The notes beneath the pieces are model-generated. The model saw nothing but the letters and a program-made list of their open reading frames with translations. It did not search any database and was not told where the DNA came from. A stretch of 64,000 bases of DNA from positions 1,178,001 to 1,242,000 of the forward strand of contig NZ_JBBOCA010000001.1 of the NCBI RefSeq assembly GCF_038002225.1. The letters are read 5' to 3'. This document shows positions 20,378-51,306 of this stretch, piece after piece. Origin of the DNA: Paenibacillus sp. FSL R7-0204. Its GTDB lineage: Bacteria > Bacillota > Bacilli > Paenibacillales > Paenibacillaceae. Every line of letters starts with the position of its first letter. The stretch's first letter is position 1. Made by a program: the position numbers and the translations under genes.

Positions 20378-20559
20378 CCGGGAGGCAGCCCGTATGGTGG
20401 AATGTGGCGGGGGCTTCGGTGATGGACTATTGCGCTATTGTACTTAGTGCAACAGACTGAGGTTAAATTCACTTGAAAAAAGAACCTAATGTATTTTATA
20501 CATTAGATTCTCAGGTTTCAGGCACTTTCACTTCATTTCAGTGATATCTATTGTACAGA

Positions 20560-22219
20560 GGAGACAATTTCATAATTCAAAACCCTTGCTATACCTGGCT
20601 TTTTTGAGCACAGAAAAAGGAGTACCTCCCCACATTCTCGAAGTGATAGGCGACGAAACCAACACCCGAGAAGAAAAGAGGTAATCCCTATCTATTCTAT
20701 TCGACAAGAAGAACTGTTTTCCTTTGAGGAATTGCTCCAGATGGGTCCAGAAGATAAATACAGCCAAATCTTTGAACACTTACATTTAGCTCCAGTTCTG
20801 TCCGCACTGGGGAAAAAGAACCATCGCGGACGGCCTGAGCAATTAAACGTACCTGCCATGATCTACTCGCTGCTGATTGCCAAAATGGAGAACATTGAGT
20901 TTATTTCTGCCTTGGTCCGGCGACTGAATCATAGCCACGAATTTCGAGTCCAGTGCCGGTTTACGGGCTCGGACAACATTCCAAGCCAGGCTTCCTATTC
21001 CCGTTTGATTCATGCGCTGGAGCAAACGGGAATGCTGGAACAACTTCAGGATCGCCTAGTCACATCTGCCCTAGAAGAAGGTTTTGTGAGCGGCACCCAT
21101 CTTGCTGTGGATTCCTCCATGGTCGAGGCGTGGGATTGCCAATTTAGCGAATCGGCTTCCAAGCGTCGTGCGGCTCGTCGGGAGCAAAAGAAAGGCGAAG
21201 CTCCGGTGGCCGAGCAACTTCAGCTCGAACCTCCCGAGCCTGAGCCGAAGGCGGTGAACGAGCCGCTGAAGAAACCCAAGTACAGCAAGCCAGGTCGTCC
21301 ATCCCAGGCCGAAAAGGAACGTCGGCGCGAGGAAATGGAAGCCTATGAACAAAGTCTCGGACCGTTCCAGAAAACCATTGAAGCGATGTTGCCTTACACG
21401 TACAATGAACTGCTGACCGCGTTGCCCCGGCATGCTGCGCGTTGTGACAAGAAAAATACGAAGGGGCGAATGACCAGCTATTACGGGTTCAAGGCGAATC
21501 TGCTGGTCGACACGGACAGCCAGTATATCCTCAGTGGCCTCTTTAGTTCGGCCAATCCGAATGACCAGCGGATGGCGGTCGTCCTTCTCAAAGGCCTGCT
21601 CCTGAAGTTTCCGGGGCTAAAGGTCAAGCATATCTTGGGCGACAAAGGCTACGACTGCGCGGCGATCTACCAGTTGATTCATTCGCTCGGCGCCTATCCT
21701 GCGATTTCCCTGATTCACCACAAAGACCCGCCTGCAGGAATGAATCTGGAGTACACGCCGGTGTGCGCTCAAGGACATGCGTACCGTTACGACAGTTTTG
21801 ATGCCAAGTATGAGACCCTGAAGTACACCCGGCCTAGCGAATGCAAAGGCTGTGCGCTCTCCGGTACCGATTGCCAAAAAGTGTTTAAAATTCGCATACA
21901 AACGGATTTGCGTTTACACACCTATCCCGCAAGAGGTAGCGAAAGTTTTACCACGCTGTACAACAAGCGTACGGCGGTGGAGCGTGTGTTTGCCTATCTC
22001 AAAGAGTATTTCGGCATGAAACGAACGCGTCACCGCGGTGTCCGGGCAAGTGTTGATTTCCAGCTCAGTACATTAGCGTACAATTTGAGTAAATTTGCGT
22101 TAGACAAGTTGAACCAGCAGGTGAAAAACTCCCAGCAAGTCGCCTGATTTTTTAAAAACATGACCTTAGACTTTGGCCCAGTCTTGCTTTTCAGTAAACT
22201 GAATTATGAAATTGTCTCC
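20560..22219 (+). mobile_element. IS1182-family insertion sequence, 1660 bp
   Basis: Perfect 19-bp inverted repeats mark the ends: GGAGACAATTTCATAATTC at 20560-20578 and its complement at 22201-22219. AGA flanks both sides (20557-20559 and 22220-22222), which fits a 3-bp target duplication. The element carries one transposase gene and sits in the centre of a palindromic core of a family A repeat. The perfect ends suggest recent movement. It separates the mannoside operon from the AraC regulator gene without disrupting either. Confidence 0.92.
20732..22147 (+). CDS. IS1182-family DDE transposase
   Basis: The protein has the IS1182 layout: an N-terminal helical region with VPAMIYSLLIAKMENIEF, the first catalytic Asp in LAVDSSMVEAWD, a charged insertion at about 140-200, the second Asp in GDKGYDC, and the Glu in KRTAVERVFAYLKEYFGMKR. 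The first conventional start is TTG at 20732. However, similarity to the family seems to continue upstream as SIRQEELFSFEELL, and the best ribosome binding site, AGAGGT at 20677-20682, points to an ATC codon at 20690. So translation may begin at a rare start codon, or the original ATG was lost. No stops interrupt the gene. Confidence 0.9.
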   Translation: MLQMGPEDKYSQIFEHLHLAPVLSALGKKNHRGRPEQLNVPAMIYSLLIAKMENIEFISALVRRLNHSHEFRVQCRFTGSDNIPSQASYSRLIHALEQTGMLEQLQDRLVTSALEEGFVSGTHLAVDSSMVEAWDCQFSESASKRRAARREQKKGEAPVAEQLQLEPPEPEPKAVNEPLKKPKYSKPGRPSQAEKERRREEMEAYEQSLGPFQKTIEAMLPYTYNELLTALPRHAARCDKKNTKGRMTSYYGFKANLLVDTDSQYILSGLFSSANPNDQRMAVVLLKGLLLKFPGLKVKHILGDKGYDCAAIYQLIHSLGAYPAISLIHHKDPPAGMNLEYTPVCAQGHAYRYDSFDAKYETLKYTRPSECKGCALSGTDCQKVFKIRIQTDLRLHTYPARGSESFTTLYNKRTAVERVFAYLKEYFGMKRTRHRGVRASVDFQLSTLAYNLSKFALDKLNQQVKNSQQVA

Positions 22220-22356
22220 AGAGTACAGTAGAAGGGATTATTTGATCGTTTTGCACGGATTCTATTGTACGTAGTACAATTACTCCAATTTTAGCAGTTA
22301 TCGCCCATTAGCGATTAGAGGTTTCAACTCAAACTGTAGGCGGAGGCTCCGCCCAA

Positions 22357-24693
22357 TCAAACCGGTCTTTTCGCAGCGGTCCCCTTCAAGGCATGTTCCT
22401 TGCGGTATTGCCCTGGCGTCAGGCCGGTTTCTTTTTTGAACTTGCGGATGAAATTGGGCGCATCCAGGTAACCGACCTGCTCGATGATCTCCTTGAGCGG
22501 TGCGCTGGTGTTCTCCAGCAGCCGGATGACCTCGTCCACACGCCGCTGCCAGATATATTGCGAGAAATTGCTTCCGGTCTTCTCCTTGAAGCTCCGGCTT
22601 AAATAAGAGGTCGAGATGGCGAACTTCAGCGCTACATGCTCCAGGCTGAGGGTGTAGTCGGCGAACTGCTGGTCCACATAGGCCAGAATGTCATCCATTA
22701 GGGAAGACTCGCTGGTCTCTGTATTCCGCTCGACCTGGGCGCATATGGCGGAAGCCAGCGAGAGCAGCCGGCTCTCCAGCTCCTCCAGCGTCTCGAAGGA
22801 GGTCAGCTCCGGCATATTGGTGAACACCTCGTCCATACCCAGCTCCGAGGCGGTGCGCAGAAAAGCGTTCAGCAGATCGAAGCAGATACACCGCAGCAGA
22901 TGAACCTGCAGCGGCTCGTCCTTGATTGTGTCAATGGTATCGGCAATCATCTGGGCCGCTACCGATTCGTTGCCCTGCTTCAGACTCTGCTCCAGCTTCA
23001 GCATGGATTTGCGCGGAATCCAGAAGCTCTCGGCAGCGGAGGGGTTCAGCTCCGCAAGCTGTTCGAAATAGGTGACCTGACCGCTGCGGCGGATCATCCG
23101 GTGCTCCAGCGCGGCAGCGGCTTCAATGAACGACTGGTTCACCCGGGCGAGATCGCGGTAGGCCATGCCGACACCGATACTCAGCGCAAGCTGCGAGTGT
23201 TCACGGATCACATCCTGAATCCCTTCAATCACCTGCTCCATCCGGCTCTGAACGGGCAGTTCCCCCTCACCTGGCAGGGAGATGATCAGGGCGAACTGGT
23301 CCTTGACCGAGAATTCGATCCCGAAGATCTGCGCATCCGGGCCCGGCAGGCAGATATTGCTGAGCATCTCCTGCAGCAGATGGCGTTCCTGCCAGGACTT
23401 GCCGCCCGGCGCTGCATCATCCCAGGACAGGATGGCTGAGAAGTAGAGGCCTTGTCCCTGCGGATGCCTGAAGCCTGCGCTCAGAATCATCTGCTCAATC
23501 TCGGGATCATCCGGCTGGCCGTGCTTGAGCAGCAGCAGCATACACTGGTTGCGGACAAAAGGCTCCTGGAGGTCAATCCGGGCACTGTAGTCATGAAGCG
23601 TCTGCCGGATGGACTCCCATTCATCGCGCAGCTTAGGGGCTTCATTACTACTGCCTCTCGGCTTGGCGAACTCCATCAGATCGCGGATCGGGTGGTATTG
23701 CCGCTTGGCCAGCAGCAGCGCGGCCGCTATGCCGGTAACGACCGTAATACAAAAGACAATCAGAATTAGCGTCTGGACATGGGCGACCCGGCTGAAGAAC
23801 TGGAAACTGGGCATCGTGGTGACGTAGGTCCAGCCATTCTCCTCGGACTTCACGGACACCACGGAGTACTGTTCCCCGTCCAGCTCCAGATTGTGAATCC
23901 CCGGCTTTAGAGCGGATAGGGTCTGCAGCTCGTTTTGGGGAAAGCTGACGCCATGGCTGTTCGCGGTCAGCACCTCGCCGGAAGGGCCGAAGATATAGCT
24001 GCTGCCCGAGAAATCGCTCAGAACCGAGTCCATGACGCCGGTAAGATTGGATTCCTTCATCAGATAGACGACTGTTCCGTAAGGGAACGGGTCATTCGGC
24101 TTCACCGGGACGAGCATGGCGAGCATCGGCTCCATCCGGGAATTGACGGTCACATTCTCGGCCGGACGCACCAGCGGCTGACGGGCCTCGTTCAAGTCGC
24201 GCCGCAGTTTCTCCGGGGTCCAGCGCTCGAACTGATAGAGGGTATCGAAGGTGACATGAAGATCAGCCAGCCCACGGTAAGAATAGATATTGGAATCGCC
24301 GTGGAAGTAGAGGAACAGATCCTCCGCGATGCTGCTGCTGGCCTTGTAATTCGCCAGTGCCTGAATCGCCTCCAGACTGTAATAAGGATGCCGGACCATA
24401 TAAGGAGTCAGATGCTTGTCATAGGCGATTCTTCCGGCGATCTCCTGAAGCTCATTCATCCGGCCGTCGATGGTGCTTTTCACTTGATTAAGCTGATTAA
24501 CATTGGATTGTTCAATTTCGACCCGCAGGCCCTTGACGGCGTTTTCATAGACGAAGATGGTAACGCCGGTGAGCGGGATCAGGAACATGAGGATATAGGA
24601 AAAAGCGTATTTCAGCAGCAGCCTTGACTTGAAATGATTCCAGGTCAGCCGGAACCGGTTCAGCAAGGATGGCTGGGGTGCGGGATTGGCCAT
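22357..24693 (-). CDS. Membrane-anchored AraC-family regulator (YtdP-like)
   Basis: This 778-residue one-component regulator joins an outside sensor to DNA binding. A membrane segment lies at about 26-48, an extracellular Cache-like region at about 50-295, a second membrane segment at about 300-325, a cytoplasmic linker, and two AraC helix-turn-helix motifs in the last 100 residues (FAISTSYLSRSFKEKTGSNF and IIEQVGYLDAPNFIRKFKK). Such proteins commonly sit beside LplB/YtcP/YtcQ transporters and activate them when the sugar or the loaded binding protein is sensed. By position it probably controls the mannoside operons to its left. GGAGGT precedes the ATG at 24693. The IS1182 insertion separates it from GH130 but leaves its 3' end intact. 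Confidence 0.88.
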   Translation of the reverse strand: MANPAPQPSLLNRFRLTWNHFKSRLLLKYAFSYILMFLIPLTGVTIFVYENAVKGLRVEIEQSNVNQLNQVKSTIDGRMNELQEIAGRIAYDKHLTPYMVRHPYYSLEAIQALANYKASSSIAEDLFLYFHGDSNIYSYRGLADLHVTFDTLYQFERWTPEKLRRDLNEARQPLVRPAENVTVNSRMEPMLAMLVPVKPNDPFPYGTVVYLMKESNLTGVMDSVLSDFSGSSYIFGPSGEVLTANSHGVSFPQNELQTLSALKPGIHNLELDGEQYSVVSVKSEENGWTYVTTMPSFQFFSRVAHVQTLILIVFCITVVTGIAAALLLAKRQYHPIRDLMEFAKPRGSSNEAPKLRDEWESIRQTLHDYSARIDLQEPFVRNQCMLLLLKHGQPDDPEIEQMILSAGFRHPQGQGLYFSAILSWDDAAPGGKSWQERHLLQEMLSNICLPGPDAQIFGIEFSVKDQFALIISLPGEGELPVQSRMEQVIEGIQDVIREHSQLALSIGVGMAYRDLARVNQSFIEAAAALEHRMIRRSGQVTYFEQLAELNPSAAESFWIPRKSMLKLEQSLKQGNESVAAQMIADTIDTIKDEPLQVHLLRCICFDLLNAFLRTASELGMDEVFTNMPELTSFETLEELESRLLSLASAICAQVERNTETSESSLMDDILAYVDQQFADYTLSLEHVALKFAISTSYLSRSFKEKTGSNFSQYIWQRRVDEVIRLLENTSAPLKEIIEQVGYLDAPNFIRKFKKETGLTPGQYRKEHALKGTAAKRPV

Positions 24694-24798
24694 GCAGCAG
24701 TACCTCCAGTGTTAAGATATTCGGACTAGAAAACTAGGATGAAACCTCTTGAACTAGAAATTGCAGTTCTCTTCTGGATTACACTTGTGCTACTATGA

Positions 24799-24814
24799 AC
24801 ATTATAACATTATA
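24799..24814. promoter_or_regulatory. Tandem direct repeat ACATTATA x2 overlapping a TATAAT
   Basis: It lies in the 260-bp divergent gap between the AraC regulator and the amidohydrolase operon. It could be a promoter element or regulator site for either side. No matching -35 was convincing. Confidence 0.3.
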
Positions 24815-24964
24815 ATCTTTGGAGTGAAGCAGCTTTATATTTTTCTAACAGGACGGCACGGCCGTTACTACTTGTTAAATATAAGGATGTATGGAGTTCA
24901 TGTCATTAATCATTTTTTGTAATTCCCCTGTAAATCTGTAATTGAGAAAAAGGAGATGGGACGA

Positions 24965-26065
24965 GTGGGCACAGAAAACGTGCTGCGCAATTTGCGGCTG
25001 GTGGACGGCCGGACGGTGGATATCTCCATTCAGGGTGGGATCATTACCGCGATTACCCCGCCGGCCCAGGCGGAAGGCAGGACCCTACTGGACTGCTCCG
25101 GATTATATGGCTCCAGCGGATGGATTGATCTGCATGTACATGCTGTGCCGGAGTTTGACCCCTACGGCGATGAGATCGACGAGATCGGGGTGAAGCAGGG
25201 AGTGACGACAATGGTGGATGCGGGAAGCTGCGGGGCAGACCGGATCGGAGCTTTTTATAGTGCCAGTCTTCTGGCCGATACACGGGTGTTCGCGCTGCTC
25301 AACATCTCAAGAATCGGCCTTGCGCGGACCGATGAGCTCTCGCAGCTGGAGTGGATTGACCGGGCCAGAGCGGTGGAAGCGGCGGCAGCCTACCCGGAAT
25401 TCATCGTCGGCCTGAAGGCACGCATCAGCCAAAGTGTCGTCAAGGACAGAGGCATTGAGCCGCTTAAGCTGGCACGCGCGCTGTCGGAAGAATTGAAGCT
25501 TCCGCTTATGGTGCACATCGGCTCAGCCCCGCCTGCCGTCTCCGAAGTGCTGGAGCTGCTGCGGGCGGGCGATGTCATTACCCACTACCTGAACGGCAAA
25601 GCCAATAATCTGTTCCGGGCGGACGGCACTCCGCTGCCGGGGCTGCTGGCTGCTGTAGCCCGGGGCGTCCGGCTGGATGTAGGACACGGCACCGCAAGCT
25701 TCTCCTTCCGGGTGGCGGAGCAGGCGAAGGCGGCTGGTATCGGGCTGAATACGATCAGCACAGACATCTACCGGGGCAACCGGCTGAACGGTCCGGTGTA
25801 CAGCATGGCGGATGTACTGACCAAGTTCCTCTATCTCGGCTATAGCCTGGAAGAGGTAATCCGTGCCGTCACCAGCAGCGCCGCAGCGTGGCTCGGCAAG
25901 CCGGAGCTTGGGCAGATCCGGGTAGGGGAGCAGGCGAATCTGACTTTATTCTCCCTGGAAGACGGTGAGAAACAGCTTATGGACTCAGAGGGTGAGGTCC
26001 GGACCGCGCACCACTATATTGAAGCAAAAGGAGTCTTTATCAATGGATCACTCATTACAAGCTAA
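24965..26065 (+). CDS. Amidohydrolase/deacetylase (EF_0837/AHA_3915-type)
   Basis: The 366-residue metal-dependent hydrolase is of the dihydroorotase-like amidohydrolase superfamily. The N-terminal metal motif is GWIDLHVHAVPEFD. A carboxylated-lysine candidate lies in FIVGLKARISQ, then histidines in LPLMVHIGSAP and VITHYLNGKA, and the final Asp region in LDVGHGTASF. This subfamily is typically encoded beside SelA-like and DgaF-like proteins, as here. It would remove an acyl group from an N-acyl amino-sugar acid or open a related ring; the true substrate is unknown. The GTG at 24965 is chosen because AAGGAG lies 9 bases ahead; the ATG at 24956 is too close to that site. It is the first gene of a five-gene operon. 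Confidence 0.8.
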   Translation: MGTENVLRNLRLVDGRTVDISIQGGIITAITPPAQAEGRTLLDCSGLYGSSGWIDLHVHAVPEFDPYGDEIDEIGVKQGVTTMVDAGSCGADRIGAFYSASLLADTRVFALLNISRIGLARTDELSQLEWIDRARAVEAAAAYPEFIVGLKARISQSVVKDRGIEPLKLARALSEELKLPLMVHIGSAPPAVSEVLELLRAGDVITHYLNGKANNLFRADGTPLPGLLAAVARGVRLDVGHGTASFSFRVAEQAKAAGIGLNTISTDIYRGNRLNGPVYSMADVLTKFLYLGYSLEEVIRAVTSSAAAWLGKPELGQIRVGEQANLTLFSLEDGEKQLMDSEGEVRTAHHYIEAKGVFINGSLITS

Positions 26066-27149
26066 ATATGGATTGAAGCGTGTGATTAATGCCAGCGGAA
26101 GAATGAGCATTCTCGGCGTATCCGCGCCCACCGATTCGGTGATGGAGGCAATGAAGCAGGGCGGACAGCAGTATGTGGAGATTGCCGATCTGGTGGACAA
26201 ATCGGGAGAGTACATCGCCCGCCTGCTCGGTTCGGAGGGGGCTGCTGTCGTGAACTCGGCCTCCAGCGGCATTGCGCTGTCGGTCGCAGCCATTGTGACC
26301 GCCGGAGATCCGCGCCTTAGTCTGCGCCTGCACCAGGAGCCGGTGCTGAAGAATGAGATTATCATGCTGAAGGGTCATAATGTACAGTATGGAGCGCCGG
26401 TGGAGACGATGGTCTTCCTCGGCGGCGGCCGGGTAGTTGAAGTGGGATATGCCAACGAAGGCCGCGCAGAGCATATCGAACAGGCCATCGGGGAACGTAC
26501 CGCAGCGATCCTCTATGTGAAATCCCACCACGCCGTCCAGAAGAATATGATCTCGGTGGAGGAGGTCTGGGAGGTGGCACAGCGCAGGGGCGTGCCGATG
26601 ATTGTCGATGCGGCTGCGGAGGAGGATCTGCGGAAGTACGTCCAGTATTCGGATCTGGCTATCTATAGCGGCTCGAAGGCTGTGGAAGGTCCAACTTCGG
26701 GCATTGTAGCGGGCGGGAAGAAATATATTGAGTGGCTCAAGGTACAACTGCACGGAATTGGCCGCAGCATGAAGGTCGGCAAAGAGACCACCTTCGGACT
26801 GCTCCAGGCGTTGGATGAATACCAGGACAAGCCGGACAACAGCCAGCAGGAGAAGCAGGCACTGGAGGCGCTTCAGCCGCTGGCCGGTCTTCCCGGAGTG
26901 TCGGTCCGCACCGTGCAGGATGAAGCGGGCCGGGCGATTTACCGGGGACGCATCCAGATTGATGCCGCTGCTGCGGGAATGGATGCAAGGGAGGTCAATG
27001 ACCGCCTGCGGGAAGGCGGGATTGCCGTGTATACCCGGGACTATGGGGTGAAGCAGGGGTATTTCGATATTGATCCAAGGCCGCTCCAAGGAGATGATCT
27101 CCAGGTTATCGTCAGCAGAATTCAAGAGATTATAGGGGGCAGATCATAA
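26043..27149 (+). CDS. SelA-like PLP enzyme, DgaE-type ammonia lyase
   Basis: This 368-residue fold-type I PLP protein is related to SelA. The characterised relative is Salmonella DgaE, D-glucosaminate-6-phosphate ammonia lyase, which forms a 2-keto-3-deoxy sugar acid and ammonia. The internal aldimine lysine is probably Lys212 in YSGSKAVEGPTSG, and VDAAAEEDL holds the ring-contacting Asp. The ATG at 26043 follows AAAAGGAG and overlaps the amidohydrolase end by 23 bases. The gene following is DgaF-like, supporting the pair. Whether the substrate carries a phosphate is open, because the operon also has a kinase. Confidence 0.8.
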   Translation: MDHSLQAKYGLKRVINASGRMSILGVSAPTDSVMEAMKQGGQQYVEIADLVDKSGEYIARLLGSEGAAVVNSASSGIALSVAAIVTAGDPRLSLRLHQEPVLKNEIIMLKGHNVQYGAPVETMVFLGGGRVVEVGYANEGRAEHIEQAIGERTAAILYVKSHHAVQKNMISVEEVWEVAQRRGVPMIVDAAAEEDLRKYVQYSDLAIYSGSKAVEGPTSGIVAGGKKYIEWLKVQLHGIGRSMKVGKETTFGLLQALDEYQDKPDNSQQEKQALEALQPLAGLPGVSVRTVQDEAGRAIYRGRIQIDAAAAGMDAREVNDRLREGGIAVYTRDYGVKQGYFDIDPRPLQGDDLQVIVSRIQEIIGGRS

Positions 27150-27904
27150 TGAGCAAGATTCAGGAGCGTTTCTATAAGAACAGAGCGGCATTGAATGTGC
27201 TGGCCGGCAGTATCGCGAACGCCAAGGACATCTACGAGGCTGCCGAAGGGCATGTACTGATAGGCGTATTATCCAAAAATTACGCCAATGCCCGCGAAGC
27301 GTCCGCCGCTATGACGGAGTACGGACAGATGATCCAGGATGCCGTATCCATCGGGCTTGGCGCCGGGGACAACCGCCAGGCGGCGGCGGTCGCAGAGATT
27401 GCTTCAAGCTATGCGGGCAGCCATATCAATCAGGTATTTCCGGCTGTAGGCGCGACCCGTGCCAATCTGGGAGCGAAGGATAGCTGGATTAACAGCCTGG
27501 TCTCTCCCTGCGGACAGACCGGCTATGTCAATATATCCACCGGACCGGTCAGCTCGGGGAATGCTTCGCAGGCCATCGTTCCAGTTCATGCTGCCATTGC
27601 TCTGGTCCGGGACATGGGCGGCAATGCGCTCAAATATTATCCGATGAAGGGGCTGGAGCTGGAAGAAGAGTATCGTGCGGTAGCCAAGGCCTGCGGAGAA
27701 GCCGGATTTGCCCTTGAGCCTACGGGCGGCATCGATCTGGATAACTTCGCACCTATTCTGGAGATTGCCCTTCAGGCAGGCGTGCCTCAGGTCATCCCGC
27801 ATGTCTATTCCTCCATCATTGATCCCCAGACCGGGAACACGAACATCCAGGATGTCCGTACACTGCTCGGCACGATGAAATCGCTGGTGGACCGCTATGC
27901 CTAG
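27149..27904 (+). CDS. DgaF-like 2-keto-3-deoxy-phosphogluconate aldolase
   Basis: The 251-residue TIM-barrel protein is of the DgaF type, distinct in sequence from classical Eda. The expected role is cleavage of 2-keto-3-deoxy-6-phosphogluconate to pyruvate and glyceraldehyde 3-phosphate through a Schiff base. The lysine is probably Lys162 in ALKYYPMKGL, an analogue of the KxFP motif, and LEPTGGIDLDNF forms the phosphate-binding turn. The start codon overlaps the stop of the PLP enzyme (TAATG). Its neighbours make the ammonia lyase, aldolase and kinase one unit. Substrate assignment rests on the Salmonella Dga proteins. Confidence 0.8.
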   Translation: MSKIQERFYKNRAALNVLAGSIANAKDIYEAAEGHVLIGVLSKNYANAREASAAMTEYGQMIQDAVSIGLGAGDNRQAAAVAEIASSYAGSHINQVFPAVGATRANLGAKDSWINSLVSPCGQTGYVNISTGPVSSGNASQAIVPVHAAIALVRDMGGNALKYYPMKGLELEEEYRAVAKACGEAGFALEPTGGIDLDNFAPILEIALQAGVPQVIPHVYSSIIDPQTGNTNIQDVRTLLGTMKSLVDRYA

Positions 27905-32467: not shown

Positions 32468-32506
32468 AGCGGAAGCAGGGGGTGGGTTGGGGAGAAGTCC
32501 CGCCGA

Positions 32507-32691
32507 ATGTATTTTGTGCAATAGATTAGGCCATATCCGGCGTTAAAATCCGTTCTGATGTATTCCATACAACAGATTTCCGGCATACGTCTCCAAAACA
32601 CCCTTTCTGCGAAAATCTGCTGTACAAACTGCAACAGATCGCTTTTTACAGCTTCTAAAGAGAAAATCTGCTGTAGTAAATACAATAGATC
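32507..32691. repeat. Palindromic repeat family A, complete four-core copy
   Basis: Cores begin near 32507 (TGTATTTTGTGCAATAGA), 32557 (TGTATTCCATACAACAGA), 32615 (TCTGCTGTACAAACTGCAAC) and 32666 (TCTGCTGTAGTAAATACAAT). The spacing is about 50, 58 and 51 bases. The minus strand contains an accidental open frame that should not be annotated as a gene. Confidence 0.8.
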
Positions 32692-43860: not shown

Positions 43861-43891
43861 CATGCTGTCCCGGCGATGCCGGGGCAGCATG
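43861..43891 (+). promoter_or_regulatory. 14-bp leader hairpin before the P1B4 ATPase
   Basis: CATGCTGTCCCGGC and GCCGGGGCAGCATG pair over 14 bp with one G-U and a 3-base loop. TGTCATTTT follows. It is about 80 bases upstream of the start codon and could act as an attenuator or as a terminator of upstream transcription. Confidence 0.65.
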
Positions 43892-43970
43892 TGTCATTTT
43901 AAGGGTGTTAATAATGGCTCTCATTCTCAAGTGTGCGCTTAACCAAAACCATTCAGGAAGGTGATTTATT

Positions 43971-45926
43971 ATGCAAGCAACCTCGAAATCAATGCCCAAA
44001 TCCATAGCGCGTCAAGGAGGGGCGCAGCAGCCCCGGACTCCGGGACCGCGCCGCTTCGATCCGTTGGCGATGCTCAGCAACTCCGAAATGCAGGCCGCTC
44101 TGGGGAGCGGGCTGATTATGCTGGCAGCCTGGGCTACCAGCGGCTGGTCGGAGGTCTTATCCGTAATTCTCTACGTGATCTCTTATACACTGGGCGGCTG
44201 GATGAAGGCGAAGGAAGGCGTGGAGACGCTGGTCAAAGAGCGTGACCTGGATGTCAACCTGCTGATGATCGCTGCAGCGCTGGGTGCCGCCTCCATCGGG
44301 TACTGGAATGAAGGGGCGATGCTGATCTTCATCTTTGCCCTGAGCGGAGCGCTGGAGAGCTACACGATGGAGCGCAGCAAAAAGGATATCTCCGCCCTGC
44401 TGGCCCTCAAGCCTGCTACCGCCGTGCGCATTGAGCAGGGAGCGATGAGTGAGGTTACCATTGATCAGCTCGTGTTGGGCGATCTGCTGCTGGTCCGTCC
44501 GGGTGAGCTGGTTCCCGCTGACGGTAAGGTATGCCGGGGGGAATCCTCTGTGAATCAGGCCTCCATCACGGGAGAATCGCTTCCCGTAGACAAAGCTGCC
44601 GGCAGTGAAGTATTCGCAGGTACCGTCAATGGAGAAGGTCCCCTCTATATAGAAGTGACGAAGACTGCCGAGAATACACTGTTCGCCAAAATCATCCGCA
44701 TGGTGGAAGAGGCGGAGAACGAAGTGCCGGATTCGCAGCGTTTTATCAAACGGCTGGAATCCGTATATGCCCGGGTTGTGGTGGCTGCCACAGTACTGCT
44801 GATCACCCTGCCGCCGTTTGTGCTGGACTGGAGCTGGAGCAATACGTTCTATAAGGCAATGGTCTTCCTGGTTGTGGCGTCCCCGTGTGCGCTGGTATCC
44901 TCAATCATGCCCGCCATGCTGTCGGCTATCTCCAAGAGCGCCCGCAAAGGCATCCTGTTCAAAGGCGGGGTTCATCTGGAGAATATGGCGCGGACCTCGG
45001 TCGTTGCTTTTGACAAAACAGGTACCCTGACGGAAGGCATTCCGCAGGTCACGGACTTCATCGCCGGAGAAGGGTATGTGCGGGAAGAGCTGCTGGCCGT
45101 GAGCGCCTCGATCGAGAAGCTGTCGGGGCATCCGCTGGCAGAGGCCATTGTCGCGCTTGCGGAAGCGGAGCAAATCGGACTGCGGGATATTGAAGAGAGC
45201 CAGTCGGTTACCGGCTGGGGAATTGAAGGCGTCATAGACGGCCAGCTGTGGCGGATCGGCAAGTCCAATCTGCTGGATGAAGCGGCAGGTGCGGCTACGG
45301 ACCATTGGATGGCTCTGCGCAGCAGTCTGGAACAGGACGGCAAAACGGTATCGCTGATCCTTGCCGGAGAGACCATCGCCGGAATGATTGCCCTGCAGGA
45401 CACCGTTCGCCCCCAGGCGGCGGCTGCCGTGCGCAAGCTGCATGATCTGGGGATCAAGGTAGCGATGCTGACCGGAGACCGCGAGGCTACAGCCCGGGTA
45501 ATCGCGGGGCAGAGCGGCGTTGATCTTGTGTTCGCGGGACTTTTGCCGGAAGATAAGGTATCGCACGTCAAGGCGCTTCGGGAGCAATACGGTCATGTCA
45601 TCATGGTAGGCGACGGGGTGAATGATGCACCTGCACTCGCTACCGCAACGGTTGGCATGGGCATGGGGATGAAGGGCAGCGGGGCTGCCCTGGAGATTGC
45701 CGATGTGGTGCTGATGAATGACAACATTGAAGAGATTGCCGGGACGATTGCCCTGGCGCGCCGGACACAGCGGATTGTGAAGCAGAATATGATTTTTGCG
45801 GTAACGGTCATTGCCACCTTGATGATCAGCAACTTTGTGCAGGGGATTGCGCTGCCGTTCGGGGTCGTCGGGCATGAGGGAAGCACGATTCTCGTCATCC
45901 TTAACGGCTTGCGTCTGCTGCGTTAG
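43971..45926 (+). CDS. pfeT: P1B4-type metal ATPase, probable Fe(II) exporter (PfeT-like)
   Basis: The 651-residue heavy-metal P-type ATPase has no N-terminal metal-binding domain. The metal site in membrane helix 4 is SPC (Ser304-Pro305-Cys306) instead of CPC, the mark of the P1B4 group. ITGESLP, DKTGT with phosphorylated Asp348, SGHPLAE and GDGVNDAPAL are all intact. The Bacillus subtilis homologue PfeT exports ferrous iron and is PerR-controlled. GGAAGGTGA precedes the ATG at 43971. The Fur-like box and the redox genes downstream fit an iron/peroxide role; cobalt or zinc export cannot be excluded. Confidence 0.82.
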   Translation: MQATSKSMPKSIARQGGAQQPRTPGPRRFDPLAMLSNSEMQAALGSGLIMLAAWATSGWSEVLSVILYVISYTLGGWMKAKEGVETLVKERDLDVNLLMIAAALGAASIGYWNEGAMLIFIFALSGALESYTMERSKKDISALLALKPATAVRIEQGAMSEVTIDQLVLGDLLLVRPGELVPADGKVCRGESSVNQASITGESLPVDKAAGSEVFAGTVNGEGPLYIEVTKTAENTLFAKIIRMVEEAENEVPDSQRFIKRLESVYARVVVAATVLLITLPPFVLDWSWSNTFYKAMVFLVVASPCALVSSIMPAMLSAISKSARKGILFKGGVHLENMARTSVVAFDKTGTLTEGIPQVTDFIAGEGYVREELLAVSASIEKLSGHPLAEAIVALAEAEQIGLRDIEESQSVTGWGIEGVIDGQLWRIGKSNLLDEAAGAATDHWMALRSSLEQDGKTVSLILAGETIAGMIALQDTVRPQAAAAVRKLHDLGIKVAMLTGDREATARVIAGQSGVDLVFAGLLPEDKVSHVKALREQYGHVIMVGDGVNDAPALATATVGMGMGMKGSGAALEIADVVLMNDNIEEIAGTIALARRTQRIVKQNMIFAVTVIATLMISNFVQGIALPFGVVGHEGSTILVILNGLRLLR

Positions 45927-46032
45927 AAGCCGGTACAATGGAGGGAGCAGCAGAATATGTGCCCCCGCTTATTTTAAATTGCTTAAAATTGAATTGTTCA
46001 CAAAAAGGAGCGTTTACAACGGTTCTGGCATA

Positions 46033-46061
46033 TTGACAACTCCCCTTGAGGTGATCATAAT
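46033..46061 (+). promoter_or_regulatory. Promoter of the thioredoxin reductase gene
   Basis: TTGACA and CATAAT are separated by 17 bases, about 70 bases ahead of the start codon. Confidence 0.65.
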
Positions 46062-46071
46062 AAATACTAGA

Positions 46072-46086
46072 TTATAATTATTTTAA
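46072..46086 (+). promoter_or_regulatory. PerR box
   Basis: TTATAATTATTTTAA differs from the PerR consensus TTATAATnATTATAA at one position. It lies 10 bases after the -10, over the expected transcription start, where PerR would repress until peroxide oxidises it. Confidence 0.65.
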
Positions 46087-46131
46087 ATAAGGAATGGCGT
46101 CTTTTCCGTCCATCTCAAGGGGGATATCATC

Positions 46132-47073
46132 ATGTACAAATCAATTATTGTCGGTACTGGACCGGCCGGATTGACAGCTGCTATATATTTGGCCCGGGCG
46201 AACCTGAACCCGCTCGTTATCGAAGGTCCGCAGCCAGGCGGACAGCTTACAACTACAACAGAGATCGAGAACTTCCCGGGATTCCCGGAAGGCATTTTGG
46301 GTCCTGATCTGATGGATAATATGCGCAAGCAGGCAGAGCGTTTCGGTGCACAGTTCGTGACCGGCTGGGTGAACAGCGTGGAACTGGGCGACCGTCCGTT
46401 CAAGCTGAACGTGGAAGGCATGGGCACGCTGATTACGGATACGCTGATTATCTCCACGGGTGCTACAGCCAAGTATCTCGGGATTCCCGGGGAGCAGGAT
46501 AACATCGGACGCGGGGTCAGCACTTGTGCTACCTGTGACGGATTTTTCTTCCGCGGCAAAGAGATCGTGGTGGTCGGCGGCGGCGATTCCGCGCTTGAAG
46601 AAGCGGGCTTCCTGACACGTTTTGCTTCCAAGGTAACCCTGGTGCACCGCCGTGAAGAGCTGCGGGCCTCGAAGATTATGCAGGACCGTGTCCGCGATAA
46701 CGCCAAAGTGACCTGGGGACTGAACCGTACTCCTGTAGAGGTGATTGCCGGAGACAAGGGCGTAACTGGCCTGAAGGTAATTAACAACGAGACCGGCGAA
46801 GAAGAGTTCATTGAAGCCAGCGGAGTATTCGTGGCGGTCGGCCATCATCCGAATACGGCATTCCTGGGCGGACAGATCACTACAGATGCGAACGGTTATA
46901 TCGTATCGAATCCTGGCACCTCCGAGACGAACATTCCCGGCGTATTCGCTTGCGGCGATGTGCAGGATACCCGTTACAGACAGGCCATCACGGCTGCAGG
47001 CAGCGGCTGTATGGCGGCTATGGATGCCGAGAAATATATCGAGAGCCTGGAGCACAGCGCAGTAATTATGTAA
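46132..47073 (+). CDS. trxB: Thioredoxin-disulfide reductase
   Basis: The 313-residue flavoprotein passes electrons from NADPH through FAD to thioredoxin or a related small redox protein. The FAD motif is VGTGPAGLTAA, the redox pair is CATC (Cys132 and Cys135), the NADPH motif is GGGDSALEEA with HRREELRASK, and the second FAD motif is GVFACGDVQD. AGGGGGA precedes the ATG. The next gene, a glutaredoxin-like protein with CPHC, may be its partner. Because of the PerR-like box this may be a peroxide-induced second copy and not the essential housekeeping enzyme; that is inference. Confidence 0.93.
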   Translation: MYKSIIVGTGPAGLTAAIYLARANLNPLVIEGPQPGGQLTTTTEIENFPGFPEGILGPDLMDNMRKQAERFGAQFVTGWVNSVELGDRPFKLNVEGMGTLITDTLIISTGATAKYLGIPGEQDNIGRGVSTCATCDGFFFRGKEIVVVGGGDSALEEAGFLTRFASKVTLVHRREELRASKIMQDRVRDNAKVTWGLNRTPVEVIAGDKGVTGLKVINNETGEEEFIEASGVFVAVGHHPNTAFLGGQITTDANGYIVSNPGTSETNIPGVFACGDVQDTRYRQAITAAGSGCMAAMDAEKYIESLEHSAVIM

Positions 47074-47157
47074 GTATGGCATTTGGAGAAGCAAGGATTC
47101 CGGTGCTAGAATAGATTTTAGAGTCTAATACTTTAGATACGAGGAGGAAATCATACT

Positions 47158-47394
47158 ATGGAGAATGTAATTGTATACACATCGACGAATTGCCCGCATT
47201 GCCGTCAGGTGAAAAGCTTCCTGAGCGATAAAGGGGTAGTGTACGAAGAACGCAACATTGAGCAGAACGAAGAGTACGCCCAGCAGGTGTGGGATATGGG
47301 CATGAGAGCCGTGCCGATTACGGTGATCGGGGATATGAAGATCGTTGGTATGAACAAGACCAAGTTCGACAAGGCTTTGGCTGCAACGGAATAA
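47158..47394 (+). CDS. Glutaredoxin/NrdH-like protein
   Basis: The 78-residue thioredoxin-fold protein has the active site NCPHCRQ near the N-terminus and the cis-proline in AVPITVIGD. It probably serves as a small dithiol carrier reduced by the adjacent thioredoxin reductase, as NrdH proteins are. GAGGAGG precedes the ATG and the gap from trxB is 84 bases. No ribonucleotide reductase gene is present to confirm an NrdH role. Confidence 0.88.
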   Translation: MENVIVYTSTNCPHCRQVKSFLSDKGVVYEERNIEQNEEYAQQVWDMGMRAVPITVIGDMKIVGMNKTKFDKALAATE

Positions 47395-47418
47395 TAGCCG
47401 GCAATCCTGAAATATATA

Positions 47419-47448
47419 GAGCCGCTTCCCGGTGGGAGGCGGCTCTTT
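47419..47448 (+). terminator. Terminator of the trxB-glutaredoxin unit
   Basis: GAGCCGCTTCCC and GGGAGGCGGCTC pair closely around GGT; TTT follows. Confidence 0.85.
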
Positions 47449-47450
47449 GC

Positions 47451-47546
47451 AAATATAAGCATTTATATGTTTCACACTATAAATGATCCTTCTATTTCTC
47501 GCTGAAACGGTACCGTCCTTTAAAAGGACGGTACCGTTTCCACTTG
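47451..47546. repeat. Interspersed repeat family B, copy 1 with perfect palindrome
   Basis: A left part AAATATAAGCATTTATATG and the shared TTCTATTTCTCGCTGAAAC are followed by an 18-bp-arm palindrome (47504-47540, GAAACGGTACCGTCCTTT and its complement). Close copy at 53042-53140; partial copies near 47981 and 49268. Confidence 0.8.
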
Positions 47547-47664
47547 GTGCGGAGGAAAAACAACATTTAAATCTGCCCATTGGTCTGGCCTGCTTTAACG
47601 AATATGAACAATCTTAAATGCTGCTTCTCCACTTGCTTACGTGATTACTGTCTGCTAGCAGGCC

Positions 47665-47859
47665 TCAGGTAAGAGACATGAACATCTGAAAGACAGCATA
47701 AACGGCAATGCCGCTGGCGATAAGGAGGAATCCCGATTTCTTCCGCGACTGGAACAGACGCAGGACACCGAGGCTGACGAGCGGAGCAATGATGAGCAGC
47801 AGCAGCAGCACTGCGATGAACATCTTCGCCGAAATATCAGACGTATCAACATAAGTCAT
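47665..47859 (-). CDS. Small two-helix membrane protein, unknown function
   Basis: The 64-residue protein has a short N-terminus (MTYVDTSDISAK), a hydrophobic helix (about 13-34, FIAVLLLLLIIAPLVSLGVL), a basic turn RLFQSRKKS and a second helix (about 43-62). I do not recognise a family. The ATG at 47859 follows GGAGAGA, a good ribosome binding site; an ATG 15 bases upstream is possible but less likely. It stands alone between two family B repeat copies. Confidence 0.6.
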   Translation of the reverse strand: MTYVDTSDISAKMFIAVLLLLLIIAPLVSLGVLRLFQSRKKSGFLLIASGIAVYAVFQMFMSLT

Positions 47860-47980
47860 GGATTCTCTCTCCATTTCAGAAAAAAGGGTATGGTGACAAA
47901 TGTCACACAAGTATCCTTATTATATAGGATAGATACTCCTTTTAGAGCAGGAAATGCAGATAAAAATGCGGCGATTTTAA

Positions 47981-48031
47981 GAAATATAAGAATATATGCC
48001 GTAGACCCGAAGTGATCCTGCTATTTCACGC
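47981..48031. repeat. Interspersed repeat family B, degenerate copy 2
   Basis: GAAATATAAGAATATATG followed by GATCCTGCTATTTCACGC keeps the family order but lacks the palindrome. Confidence 0.5.
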
Positions 48032-48049
48032 AAAAACAAGCCGCATCAT

Positions 48050-48081
48050 AAAAAAGCATGCCGCAGCCGTTCCGCTTGCGG
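48050..48081 (-). terminator. Terminator of xylR
   Basis: On the minus strand CCGCAAGC and GGCTGCGG form a stem with a bulge, then a T run, starting 8 bases after the xylR stop. Confidence 0.6.
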
Positions 48082-48088
48082 GTGTGTT

Positions 48089-49249
48089 CTATAGGGTCAC
48101 GCGAATGTTGCCCAGAAAATGCATCACCGCTGAAAAACCCGCTCCAATCATAGTTCCCCGGCTTCCCAGCCTGGAGAAGGTGATTTCGAGCTGCTGCTTG
48201 TGGTAGGGGAGGGTACGCTCCGCTACAACCCGGCGCAGCGGCTCGCCGAGCCACGGCTCCGCCTCCGATAGAGCGCCCCCGATAACGATCAACTCAGGGT
48301 TGAAGCTGTTGATCAGATTGGTAACTCCGATTCCCAGATACTCGCCAATGGAGTTGAAATGGCTTAGGGTATCGGGCTGCCCCTCAAGCGCATACTTGAC
48401 CAGTCCGGTCGTTGTGCGGGCCGGGAGAGAGAGGCCGGGGTTATCATAGGTTTTCTCGGAGGCATACAGCTCCCAGCAGCCCCGGCTGCCGCAGCTGCAA
48501 GGCTTGCCTTCTGCTTCAATCGTCATATGTCCGGTCTCTCCCGCATAGCCGCGCGCGCCCTTATACAACTCTCCGCCGATAATAATCCCCGACCCGATCC
48601 CCGAGCCTGCGCTGATATACAGCAGATGGCGCACATCACGCGCCGCTCCGAAGTTCAGCTCACCCTGGGCGCCTGCATTGGCCTCATTATCAATGGTGAC
48701 CGGCACCGCGAAGGCGCTTTCCAGAATCGAACGCAGGTCGACCATCTCCCAGCCCAGGTTGGGCGCGAACAGGACAACGCCGTGCTCATCGACCATTCCC
48801 GGAACGCCGACACCAATGCCCACGAGTCCGTAATGAGAAGGCGGAGCCGTAGCGATCAGCTCCGAGATCATCTGCTGCATCTGTCCGAGCACATAAGGGA
48901 AGTCGTGATTCTCGAGCACACTGTCCCGTTCATGAAGAATGCCGCCCCCCAGATTGCAGAGTACGGCCTTAAGCTGTTTTACGCGCAGCTCGATCCCGAT
49001 TACAGTTCCTGCCATTTCGTTAAAATGCAGCATCAGCGGCTTACGCCCGCCGCTGGATTCTCCGGGTCCAGCCTCAGTAACCAGCTGCTGCCCGCATAGC
49101 TCGGCTACCAGATTGGAGACGGTGGCTTTATTAAGGCCTGTCACCTCGGATACCTTGGCCCGCGAGATGGGGGAATGCATACGGATGGTATGTAAAATAA
49201 TCGATTTGTTTATTTTTTTGACCAGCGCCTGATCACCGGTAACTTTCAA
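48089..49249 (-). CDS. xylR: Xylose repressor (ROK family)
   Basis: The 386-residue ROK repressor has an N-terminal winged helix (about 15-70, SRAKVSEVTGLNKATVSNLVAEL) and a sugar-kinase-like C-terminal half. The ROK zinc motif is CSCGSRGCWE. In bacilli XylR blocks xylAB until xylose binds. The TTG at 49249 is chosen because AAGGAAG lies 8 bases ahead; a GTG at 49258 sits on top of that site. It diverges from xylA, and the dyad at 49515-49539 is its likely operator. Loss of repression by xylose and extra control by CcpA are expected from the sites seen. Confidence 0.9.
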   Translation of the reverse strand: MKVTGDQALVKKINKSIILHTIRMHSPISRAKVSEVTGLNKATVSNLVAELCGQQLVTEAGPGESSGGRKPLMLHFNEMAGTVIGIELRVKQLKAVLCNLGGGILHERDSVLENHDFPYVLGQMQQMISELIATAPPSHYGLVGIGVGVPGMVDEHGVVLFAPNLGWEMVDLRSILESAFAVPVTIDNEANAGAQGELNFGAARDVRHLLYISAGSGIGSGIIIGGELYKGARGYAGETGHMTIEAEGKPCSCGSRGCWELYASEKTYDNPGLSLPARTTTGLVKYALEGQPDTLSHFNSIGEYLGIGVTNLINSFNPELIVIGGALSEAEPWLGEPLRRVVAERTLPYHKQQLEITFSRLGSRGTMIGAGFSAVMHFLGNIRVTL

Positions 49250-49267
49250 GCAGCACACTTCCTTTTA

Positions 49268-49350
49268 CAATATAAGAATTTATATGTTTCACACCATAAC
49301 TTATCGTTCTATTTCTCGCTGACACGGGAGCGTGAAGACGCTCTCCGCTG
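49268..49350. repeat. Interspersed repeat family B, copy 3
   Basis: AATATAAGAATTTATATG, TTTCACAC and TTCTATTTCTCGCTGACACGG are kept. The following hairpin is replaced by GAGCGT-GAAG-ACGCTC. It lies just upstream of xylR. Confidence 0.7.
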
Positions 49351-49514
49351 CGCGGGTATGCCCCCTAGTCTAGAATGAAGAGCGCAAAAATGCAACTGCA
49401 TCCATTGAATTAGGACGATCCGGATGTTACATATTTTTTAATAAAAGGAATTTATAGAGGTGGGAACAGGCATCAGGATCAATGCATAACAACGGGAAAA
49501 ATAAAAATAAAAAA

Positions 49515-49539
49515 ACTTTGTTTAACCAATATACAAAGT
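49515..49539 (+). promoter_or_regulatory. XylR operator
   Basis: ACTTTGT and ACAAAGT arms flank 11 bases. It lies between xylR and xylA and overlaps the xylA -35 region, the expected place for a XylR site. Confidence 0.65.
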
Positions 49540-49558
49540 CAAAAAGATGTGTTAAGAT
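49530..49558 (+). promoter_or_regulatory. Candidate xylA promoter
   Basis: TATACA and TAAGAT are 17 bases apart. The -35 overlaps the right arm of the operator. Confidence 0.45.
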
Positions 49559-49563
49559 GATGC

Positions 49564-49577
49564 TGTAAACGCTTGCG
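49564..49577 (+). promoter_or_regulatory. cre site (CcpA) of xylA
   Basis: TGTAAACGCTTGCG matches the cre consensus at 13 of 14 positions. It begins 5 bases after the -10. Confidence 0.65.
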
Positions 49578-49609
49578 GGCGAAGCAAAATATCGAGGAGG
49601 ATTTTACAA

Positions 49610-50929
49610 ATGGCTTATTTTGAAACAGTGAGCAAGATCTCTTACGAGGGAAGCCGTTCCACTAACCCTTATGCATTCAAATTCTACAACCCTACAGAAA
49701 TCGTAGCCGGCAAAACAATGGAAGAACACCTGAAATTTGCAATGGCTTACTGGCATACATTAACAGCTGGCGGTTCCGATCCGTTCGGCGCTGAAACTGC
49801 AGTCCGCGCTTGGGACAAACTGAGCACGCTCGACAAGGCTAAGGCCCGTGCTGAAGCAGCATTCGAATTCATGGATAAGATGGACCTGCAGTACTACTGC
49901 TTCCATGATGTGGACATCGCTCCTGAAGGCGCGTCCCTGCGTGAATTCTACAGCAACATCGATACCATCGTAGACATCCTTGAACAAGGCATGAAGGCTT
50001 CCGGCAAAAAATTGCTGTGGAACACTGCCAACATGTTCACCAACCCGCGCTACATGCACGGTGCAGGCTCTACCTGCAACGCTGACGTATTCGCACACGC
50101 TGCTGCACAAGTGAAGAAAGGTCTGGAAGTAGGTAAACGTCTGGGCGCTGACAACTATGTATTCTGGGGCGGCCGTGAAGGTTATGAGACTCTGCTGAAC
50201 ACCAATATGCAGCTGGAGCAGGACAACATTGCCCGCCTGTTCAGCATGGCTGTTGATTATGCGAAGGAAATCGGCTTCGACGGCCAATTCCTGATTGAGC
50301 CTAAGCCGAAAGAGCCTACCAAGCACCAATATGACTTCGATGCAGCAACTTGCATCGCATTCCTGCAGAAGTACAACCTGGATAAGCACTTCAAGCTGAA
50401 CCTTGAAGCGAACCATGCTACACTGGCTGGCCATACTTTCGAGCATGAACTGCATGTAGCCCGTATCAACGGTATGCTGGGATCACTCGATGCGAACCAG
50501 GGCGATCCATTGCTCGGCTGGGATACAGATGAATTCCCTGCAAGCATCTACGATGCTACACTGACTCTGTATGAAGTACTGAAGAACGATGGTCTGGGCA
50601 AAGGCGGAATCAACTTTGACTCCAAGGTACGCCGTCCTTCCTTCGAGCCTGAGGATCTGTTCCTGGCACACATCTCCGGTATGGACGTATACGCTAAGGG
50701 CCTGAAGGTAGCTGCTAAGCTGCTGGAAGACGGCGTATTCGAGAACTTCATTGCGGATCGTTACAGCAGCTTCAACGAAGGCGTTGGCGCTGACATCGTA
50801 TCCGGCAAAGCGACACTGGCTTCGCTGGCTGACTACGCGCTGAACAACGAGAGCCCGCGTCCGAACAAATCCGGACGTCAGGAACTGCTGAGAGCTACAC
50901 TTAACCAGTACATCCTGACTGCTGAGTAA
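49610..50929 (+). CDS. xylA: Xylose isomerase
   Basis: The 439-residue class II (long N-terminus) xylose isomerase converts D-xylose to D-xylulose using two divalent metals. [12 protein letters not shown] holds the catalytic His/Asp, [18 protein letters not shown] the metal Glu and the active Lys, [14 protein letters not shown] the second metal site, and [11 protein letters not shown] the final Asp. GAGGAGG precedes the ATG. Codon use looks like a highly expressed gene, with many CTG and GGC codons. It is likely repressed by XylR and by CcpA. A terminator and a long gap separate it from xylB, so the two may be transcribed separately. Confidence 0.97.
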
Positions 50930-50984
50930 GACGCTGCCGGATTTGCGGGATTGCCCGCAGATTCATTAGAGAATACACGCAACG

Positions 50985-51024
50985 GGGGTTGCTGAAGAGA
51001 GCATTCTTCGGCAGCCCCTTTTTT
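50985..51024 (+). terminator. Terminator of xylA
   Basis: GGGGTTGCTGAAGA and TCTTCGGCAGCCCC pair with one G-U; TTTTTT follows. Confidence 0.9.
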
Positions 51025-51124
51025 AATGCAGACTCGCGGAGTTTTCTGCGGAGTAGGGCATCGGAAGTGCAATAGTGTATGTATTTCATAAATGCGATAA
51101 ATCTTGAGGTGCTGGGCTGTGTGA

Positions 51125-51306
51125 GTGTATTTTGTGCAGTAGAATGATCTAATTTGGCTGGGAAATAGCATTCTGCTGTATTCCATACAACAGATATTTG
51201 AGGGTACCCTACAAAACAGCCTTTTCAACAAATTCTAGTGTACAAAGTGCAATAGCTTGCGATTTTTGGCCGATTTATTGAGAATCTATTGCAGGAAATA
51301 CAATCG
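51125..51306. repeat. Palindromic repeat family A, four-core copy upstream of xylB
   Basis: Cores start near 51125 (TGTATTTTGTGCAGTAGA), 51173 (TGCTGTATTCCATACAACAG), 51234 (CTAGTGTACAAAGTGCAATA) and 51286 (CTATTGCAGGAAATACAAT), spaced about 48, 61 and 52 bases. A weaker core may precede it near 51075. Confidence 0.8.

Follow-up and report, generated by a model that had tools for sequence, protein, structure and literature searches.

The 64,000-nucleotide stretch of Paenibacillus sp. FSL R7-0204 analysed here (the window; C1:1178001-1242000 of the 7.7-Mb genome G000) contains three copies of a 187-bp element and one shorter, two-core form of it. Each complete element is an array of four 23-bp dyads, the cores, with the consensus TCT-NN-TGYA-N5-TRCA-NN-AGA and start-to-start spacing of 51, 62, and 51 bp. 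On balance, it seems probable that these arrays work as double-stranded DNA, with four putative protein dimers sitting on one face of the helix and the DNA bent or wrapped. The arrays combine conserved core letters and a rigid, helically phased spacing with a wave of AT content in the linkers; insertions and deletions are constrained, the places are conserved between species, and the dyads do not covary as those of an RNA would.

The initial annotation of the window had noticed three four-core loci and the two-core form, and all of them were recovered by direct re-measurement (Table 1). It had given the spacings as 51/60/52, 50/58/51, and 48/61/52. The spacing is indeed fixed, but these figures were slightly off, and all three arrays are 51/62/51, array 1 after subtraction of the insertion sequence (IS) that splits it and of one copy of the 5-bp duplication. 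Distances of 51 and 62 bp correspond to five and six helical turns. The cores have the polarity forward-forward-reverse-reverse, the N5 being pyrimidine-rich in cores 1-2 and purine-rich in cores 3-4, and the half-sites at the two ends of the array, the left one of core 1 and the right one of core 4, are less conserved and often read TGATTGTA or TACAATCA. The layout is nearly identical to its own reverse complement, and therefore the sequence model matches on both strands (array 2 scores 115.3 bits on the plus strand and 94 on the minus strand).

Spacing and copy number

Further copies with identical spacing, which the initial annotation had proposed to look for, are plentiful. G000 contains 35 complete arrays, counted as four sites of >14 bits each and exclusive of IS-split and partial arrays. 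The spacing is exactly 51/62/51 in 32 of these, and the other three are shifted by 1 bp (51/61/51, 52/62/51, and 52/62/52).

Two samples were collected with single-core patterns and are free of any spacing condition. In G000, a phased neighbour core was found at all 25 loci and all four cores at 23, several of these loci covering one and the same array. For alignment the 25 loci were reduced to 19 elements by omitting duplicates, an IS-split array, and a half array; the sequence-only model R1 was built from 19 copies. An exact scan with the inner-core sequence across the collection of genome contigs gave 48 loci. Of these, 46 are from Paenibacillus; a phased neighbour is present at 44 of them and the full set of four cores at 39. 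The other two loci (L146 and L165) were omitted as they were judged to be chance matches in apparently coding sequence. L007 and L020, whose spacing is other than 51/62/51, were left out of the gapless tally.

Further counts come from 844 kb of G000 sequence. Most of the 20-kb regions were picked by R1, which contains the spacing, and the following numbers are thus partly conditioned and do not describe a random sample. Sites of >15 bits lie in phased arrays in 154 of 157 cases, and two of the three solo sites are each core 4 of an array that is split by an IS. The third (L081, C1:6533480), the sole such site outside a phased array that no IS explains, has a complete array 69 bp away. In the histogram of distances, only 51, 62, 113, and 164 bp stand out as tall peaks (79, 39, 73, and 36 pairs), with at most 4 pairs at any other distance. 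A letter-blind scan for sets of four dyads that resemble each other and are spaced 51/62/51 found 48 non-redundant places, and the same scan at three wrong spacings found none. Half-sites of the TGNA type are present at 40 of these places; the other eight comprise singletons and members of other families with 51-bp tandem repeats.

Distribution and half-site classes

At E<=1e-4, R1 matches 53 of 100 Paenibacillus genomes and, in an order-wide sample, 64 of 198 genomes from 16 of 43 genera; in both cases the filters were stricter and the number of candidates scored per genome was capped, so that a few weak cases were missed. In another search one R1 match, at 9.7e-4, was found in G005. A second class with the half-site TTA-NN-TGYA and the spacing 51/62/51 is also present in G000 (e.g. 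C1:6818930, 2113924, and 5606896). The corresponding model R2 matches 61 of the 100 genomes, namely all 53 R1-positive ones and eight more with 1 to 7 matches each, which is an upper figure for the TTA class because R2 cross-matches the first class. Neither model matches the other 39 genomes at this threshold. Among the candidates scored, G016 gave 2 matches to R1 and 34 to R2. The two-core form in the window resembles the TTA class more than the first class (R2 45.5 bits at positions 41-144, R1 19.2 bits). In two genomes of other families in which arrays were read, the spacing is kept within 1 bp. G033, which belongs to another family, has half-sites of the TTA-NN-TGGA type (TGGA/TCCA) at 51/62/52.

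TCT- and TTA-class arrays adjoin in one gap at L083 (C1:6818654/6818930), L063 (C1:2113598/2113924), L087 (C1:7435560/7435763), L217, and L221. A third half-site type, ATTGTTGYA...TGCAGGAA, forms same-direction arrays at 51-52 bp (L074, C1:5182237; L077, C1:5917363; L071, C1:4095677). G015 contains TTA-NN-TGGAAAAAG... arrays spaced 51/62/51 (L125:7137-7323, L141:8079-8265, L122:5566-5752, L129:9616-9802), and it is possible that these represent a further, less symmetric half-site class.

A helical AT wave in the linkers

Although the letters of the linkers are free, their AT content swings from about 0.1-0.4 to 0.8-1.0 in each helical turn. The periodogram of linker AT content peaks at 10.1 bp with a power of 2.33 in G000 (n=32, the three arrays with 1-bp spacing changes being omitted from the gapless profiles), compared to a maximum of 0.083 in 500 shuffles. 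The 62 arrays from other genomes give a power of 2.02 at 10.1 bp against a shuffle maximum of 0.039 (500 shuffles). In the flanks the power is 0.13 (G000) and 0.04 (other genomes). AA/TT/AT/TA deviate from the phase of the array centre by at most 13 degrees, and GC/CC/GG/CG deviate from the opposite phase by at most 6 degrees; AA/TT/AT/TA in phase and GC-type dinucleotides in antiphase is the pattern of nucleosomal DNA. The wave continues through the array centre. It is shared by the TTA class, for which the linker AT profile of 18 arrays (used out of 54 candidates, a list that also held TCT-class, TGGA-type, and doubtful rows) matches that of the TCT class with r=0.81, the best of 1000 rotated nulls reaching 0.47.

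The arrays might be strong gyrase (topoisomerase) wrapping sites with extra dyads, like BIME-2 (a bacterial interspersed mosaic element, BIME) or the strong gyrase site (SGS) of Mu. E. coli gyrase sites have a periodic GC content with the A/T minor groove toward the protein, in which they resemble the arrays, and BIME-2 is intergenic (PMC6379681). In that paper, the gyrase motif has a period of 10.75 bp and a 36-bp central part without periodicity, and its authors also compare it with nucleosomes. In contrast, the arrays have a linker power of 0.002 at 10.75 bp but of 2.12 at 10.1 bp, their centre is periodic, and they carry four specific dyads. Gyrase is known as a universal enzyme, yet 39 genomes of the genus match neither model, and the half-site classes differ; we regard this explanation as very unlikely.

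DNA or RNA

The initial annotation had suggested selection on DNA or RNA structure, and had considered a structured RNA. DNA is the part of this suggestion that stood. In 388 cores the dyad halves vary independently, the observed Watson-Crick fraction being within 0.06 of the expectation from column frequencies for all nine pairs (51% versus 53% expected at the TGYA/TRCA position). The covariation beyond chance that had been proposed as a check was thus looked for and is absent, which counts against RNA. Flanking genes in tandem allowed 17 arrays to be oriented, and these contain about as many G·U as A·C mismatches (58 versus 54). Mirror pairs across the whole element are no better than independence (core 0.710 versus 0.717, linker 0.358 versus 0.383). 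Rfam gave no match in the window at gathering scores and none at E<=1 for array 3.

If the arrays were structured RNAs or arrays of transcript hairpins, good folding would be expected, and array 3 does fold far better than its shuffles (z -4.75), as does array 2 to a lesser extent (z -2.55). These energies are due to the dyads. Given the independent halves, the equal mismatch counts, the helical AT wave in the linkers, and the empty Rfam search, an RNA is not supported, and we consider it extremely improbable. A single-strand hairpin with paired stems, of the type found in repetitive extragenic palindromes (REPs), was also rejected, as compensatory pairing is absent from the 388 cores.

Evolution of the arrays

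The constraint on the arrays can be seen in 17 orthologous pairs between G070 and G000. The pairs come from 20 examined arrays of G070, which has more listed array places than these; for 17 of them one or both flanks could be matched to a G000 region that also holds an array, and for the other three such a flank match was not found among the G000 regions examined. Differences amount to 4.0% at the key core letters, 6.8% in whole cores, 12.1% in linkers, and 13.8% in flanks, while gapped positions account for 0.1%, 0.1%, 2.1%, and 23.6%, respectively. The gap frequency of linkers is thus about one eleventh of that of flanks, and from 12.1% differences but 2.1% gaps it follows that linker letters drift while linker lengths hardly do. 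At the locus of array 3, which was read in 12 genomes, the array can be aligned across eight (with orthologues in G070, G101, G073, G088, G104, G102, and G110), and the sequence immediately outside is common to only some of them. G103 retains core 1 only, G081 has a shorter remnant as judged by eye, and G067 and G043 have no core. In G073 and G102 the gap holds an extra TTA-class array.

Some arrays have spread recently. A young subfamily of about 11 arrays in G000, with 34 pairs whose linkers are 80-89% identical, occurs in both orientations and includes one copy on the 106-kb contig C2; the flanks shared by its members are ragged-ended. A large inverted repeat, CCAGCGCTCAATCC...GGATTGAGCGCTGG, lies in the right flank of some young copies, directly next to the array (e.g. 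C1:6026963 on the reverse strand, C1:2021502).

Recent amplification is what one would expect of a miniature transposon with two tandem transposase sites per end, a 39-bp interior, and an enzyme encoded elsewhere. Its ends would resemble the observed forward-forward/reverse-reverse polarity and symmetry, presence and absence of the arrays differ between species, and some copies start with TG and end with CA. However, target-site duplications are not significantly in excess in 97 arrays compared to shuffled flank pairs (5-mers 16 versus a null mean of 10.8 and maximum of 18; 6-mers 4 versus a mean of 2.5), and the ends of the young subfamily are ragged. The losses in G103 and G081 left remnants instead of clean excisions. 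Moreover, divergent copies retain cores and spacing but not linker letters, whereas dead miniature inverted-repeat transposable elements (MITEs) are expected to show no such selective retention. A miniature transposon is therefore an unlikely explanation. Under the DNA-binding model, copies would duplicate occasionally and would then be kept by selection on cores and spacing. The earlier description as an interspersed element with dyads and spacing under selection has been borne out, and the arrays are mostly intergenic.

An insertion sequence that targets core centres

The IS in the window is not a part of array 1 but targets it, and has inserted precisely at the central 5 bp of core 3. The score of its transposase is below the cut-off of the best model (270 bits), and the element is therefore named IS1182-like only (Table 1). 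All three identical copies in G000 are located exactly in the N5 of a core, and the N5 is the 5-bp duplication (CAGAG, GGAAA, ATTAG). Relatives in other genomes were taken as 20 of the 24 near-full-length copies among the matches listed, of which there were at most three per genome, 79-97% identical to the query; 15 of them interrupt TGYA-N5-TRCA exactly, the outer half-sites being of several types, and five are not exact. Overall, 18 of 23 copies are exact core-centre insertions, and at 17 of 23 a further core is present at phased spacing. TGYA-N5-TRCA has a frequency of 3.3e-4 per base in an array-rich sample (binomial P ~7e-59 for 18 of 23), and given this rarity the insertions cannot be ascribed to chance. 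The IS also inserts in arrays of the ATTGTTGYA type (L192).

IS1397 is one of the ISs that target REP palindromes. Others are ISPsy8, ISPa11, ISPpu9, and ISPpu10, according to PMC1525189, and the IS described here is like them in being specific for a repeated extragenic palindrome. It differs from REP-targeting ISs in that its target duplication is precisely the N5 in the middle of TGYA-N5-TRCA. As an IS that inserts in core centres, it is a candidate tool for site-specific insertion.

A likeness to BIME/REP arrays had been pointed out from the start, and it stands as far as lifestyle is concerned: the arrays are numerous intergenic palindromes with regular spacing and serve as targets of dedicated ISs. 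The link to REP-associated tyrosine transposases (RAYTs) does not. REP/BIME repeats occur with RAYTs (PMC2817692, PMC3116915). Matches to PF01797 (Y1_Tnp/RAYT type) were found in 56 of the 100 genomes but in none of 24 of the 53 array-bearing ones (e.g. G011, G043, G066, G101, G110), and a RAYT-dependent REP/BIME was thus rejected. The arrays further differ from REP/BIME in their length of 187 bp, the rigid 51/62/51 spacing, the free linkers, the AT wave, and the absence of dyad covariation, and they do not need a Y1_Tnp protein. We know of no REP with a 10.1-bp AT wave.

A putative multi-dimer assembly

How could four dyads at fixed distances be read? Each 23-bp core may be the site of one protein dimer, with the half-site TCT-NN-TGYA read independently on either side. 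With spacings of whole helical turns, the four dimers would come to lie on one face, and head-to-tail contacts between dimers would need 51 bp while the central head-to-head contact would need 62 bp. The linker letters would be free, but A/T would face the complex once per 10.1-bp turn with G/C opposite. A/T inward and G/C outward in each turn is what DNA requires when it is bent or wrapped round a protein core. Protein binding, the assembly of four dimers, and the wrapping of DNA are proposed here from sequence patterns. Perhaps paralogous proteins of different specificity read the TCT, TTA, and probably TGGA classes. Going further, one could think of a family comparable to nucleosome-positioning sequences, in which one four-dyad geometry is combined with half-site alphabets that are orthogonal to each other (TCT, TTA, TTA/TGGA, and related families spaced at 51 bp), each on a dedicated multi-dimer spool, maintained by selection, and exploited by the IS. 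Such a family would be a sequence-coded DNA-wrapping system in bacteria for which we know of no named counterpart; we put this forward as a tentative idea that is more doubtful than the DNA-binding model itself.

Several results weigh against the DNA-binding model. Changes from A/T to G/C are overall no rarer in linkers than in flanks (143/191 versus 328/430), so that either the wave is not strongly constrained at this divergence or the test lacks the power to show an effect. Some gaps do occur in linkers, namely at 34 positions, of which 28 come from two of the 17 pairs. According to simple open reading frame (ORF) calls, 44 array places in their gene context are convergent in 17, tandem in 23, and divergent in 4 cases, compared to 36, 71, and 30 among background gaps of >250 bp, and the depletion of arrays from divergent promoters is not significant (4/44 versus 30/137, p=0.075). 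Three of the 44 places are inside an ORF of the simple caller. The comparison of neighbouring genes yielded no candidate for the binding protein: in all-against-all searches, only ABC transporters and orthologous neighbours recur, both among 373 ORFs near G000 arrays and among 426 ORFs at 117 array places of several genomes. The 36 chromosomal places, checked for the position bias that the initial annotation had raised, show no significant bias and are compatible with an even spread (8 bins, p=0.18).

The chromosomal distribution also bears on a genome-wide segregation or replication site, similar to a centromere. Such sites typically have dyads clustered at helical spacing, and one copy is present on contig C2. 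However, neither the unbiased distribution nor the gain and loss of copies between species fits, and this alternative is highly improbable. With no significant depletion from divergent gaps and a spread compatible with even, the cellular role of the arrays is a guess; a site for chromosome architecture or a transcription boundary may be most likely.

Comparison with known systems

The initial annotation knew of no named family with this layout, and we also found none that matches. CRISPR arrays consist of equal repeats with differing spacers and occur with cas genes. The element has 23-bp repeats with linkers of 28/39/28 bp, and these linkers are homologous in orthologues and AT-phased; no search for cas genes was made. 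Lrp/AsnC proteins such as LrpC of B. subtilis are multi-dimeric, prefer curved DNA, and wrap DNA, with shorter site spacing. The likeness to such wrappers would lie in the proposed multi-dimer wrapping. A description of such an array element was not found in the open-access literature searched, most subscription journals being outside this search. Because REP/RAYT, a structured RNA, a MITE, and a gyrase site each fail a tested feature and no description was found in the open-access literature searched, we rate the array family as new in kind, with the caveat that in the loosest sense of an interspersed palindromic repeat it is of an old kind.

Most bacterial DNA-wrapping proteins are regarded as having little sequence specificity in their binding. 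If the DNA-binding model is true, bacteria would have something like programmed nucleosome sites, with dozens of copies in G000 and a presence in 16 of the 43 genera sampled. The model predicts a new protein family that could be obtained biochemically. Several half-site classes on one geometry would also offer a clean test of how specificity diverges under a fixed assembly architecture.

Features of the window and neighbouring sequences

Table 1. Arrays, two-core form, and insertion sequence in the window (window coordinates).
Feature	Position	Strand	Details
Two-core form	5676..5760	.	cores 5676-5698, 5738-5760; 62 bp apart, corresponding to the two inner cores
Array 1, left part	20434..20560	.	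core 1 20434-20456; core 2 20485-20507; core 3 left half 20547-20555; N5 CAGAG 20556-20560
IS1182-like insertion sequence	20561..22218	+	ends GAGACAATTTCATAATTC / its reverse complement
Transposase, 471 aa	20732..22147	+	best NCBIfam model NF033551 (IS1182), 201.3 bits
Array 1, right part	22219..22283	.	duplicated N5 CAGAG 22219-22223; core 3 right half 22224-22232; core 4 22261-22283
Array 2, complete	32503..32689	.	cores 32503-32525, 32554-32576, 32616-32638, 32667-32689
Array 3, complete	51121..51307	.	cores 51121-51143, 51172-51194, 51234-51256, 51285-51307

Ten ORFs adjoining arrays of G033, G027, G016, and C2 were compared with Pfam and are ordinary enzymes, a transporter, and a sigma factor, two of the ten having no match. 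The C2 copy has no blastn match to plasmids and phages. Viral contigs gave one locus, in which a second core was not seen by eye.

A distance of 51 bp is also found outside the four-core arrays. In the 844 kb, Tandem Repeats Finder reports 12 rows with a period of 51, some of them overlapping, and at most three rows for each other period from 30 to 130. In the autocorrelation, lag 51 is an outlier (95 versus a mean of 5.4), which is largely due to the four-core arrays themselves. Tandem arrays with an exact 51-bp period and an unrelated dyad of the TGTAATCG...CGATTACA type are located at L057:2538-2894 (C1:1150537), L064 (C1:2348033), L071 (C1:4077547), L070 (C1:3710031), and L083 (C1:6822350), and share the 51-bp ruler with the four-core arrays. 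Others have a period of 51/52 bp and the dyads AGGTGCAYTAWTGCACCT and AGAGGGATTTATCCCTCT (L076, C1:5735126, 5735377; L077, C1:5909929, 5910241; L082, C1:6802780, 6803048). Finally, a different repeat, GCTTACGAAGCGAGTTTTGC...GCAAAACTTAAGATTATGCTTACGAAGCGAGTTATATTGCGGAG, is present at 51350-51441 of the window and in the orthologous gaps, and some relatives have more than one copy of it beside array 3.

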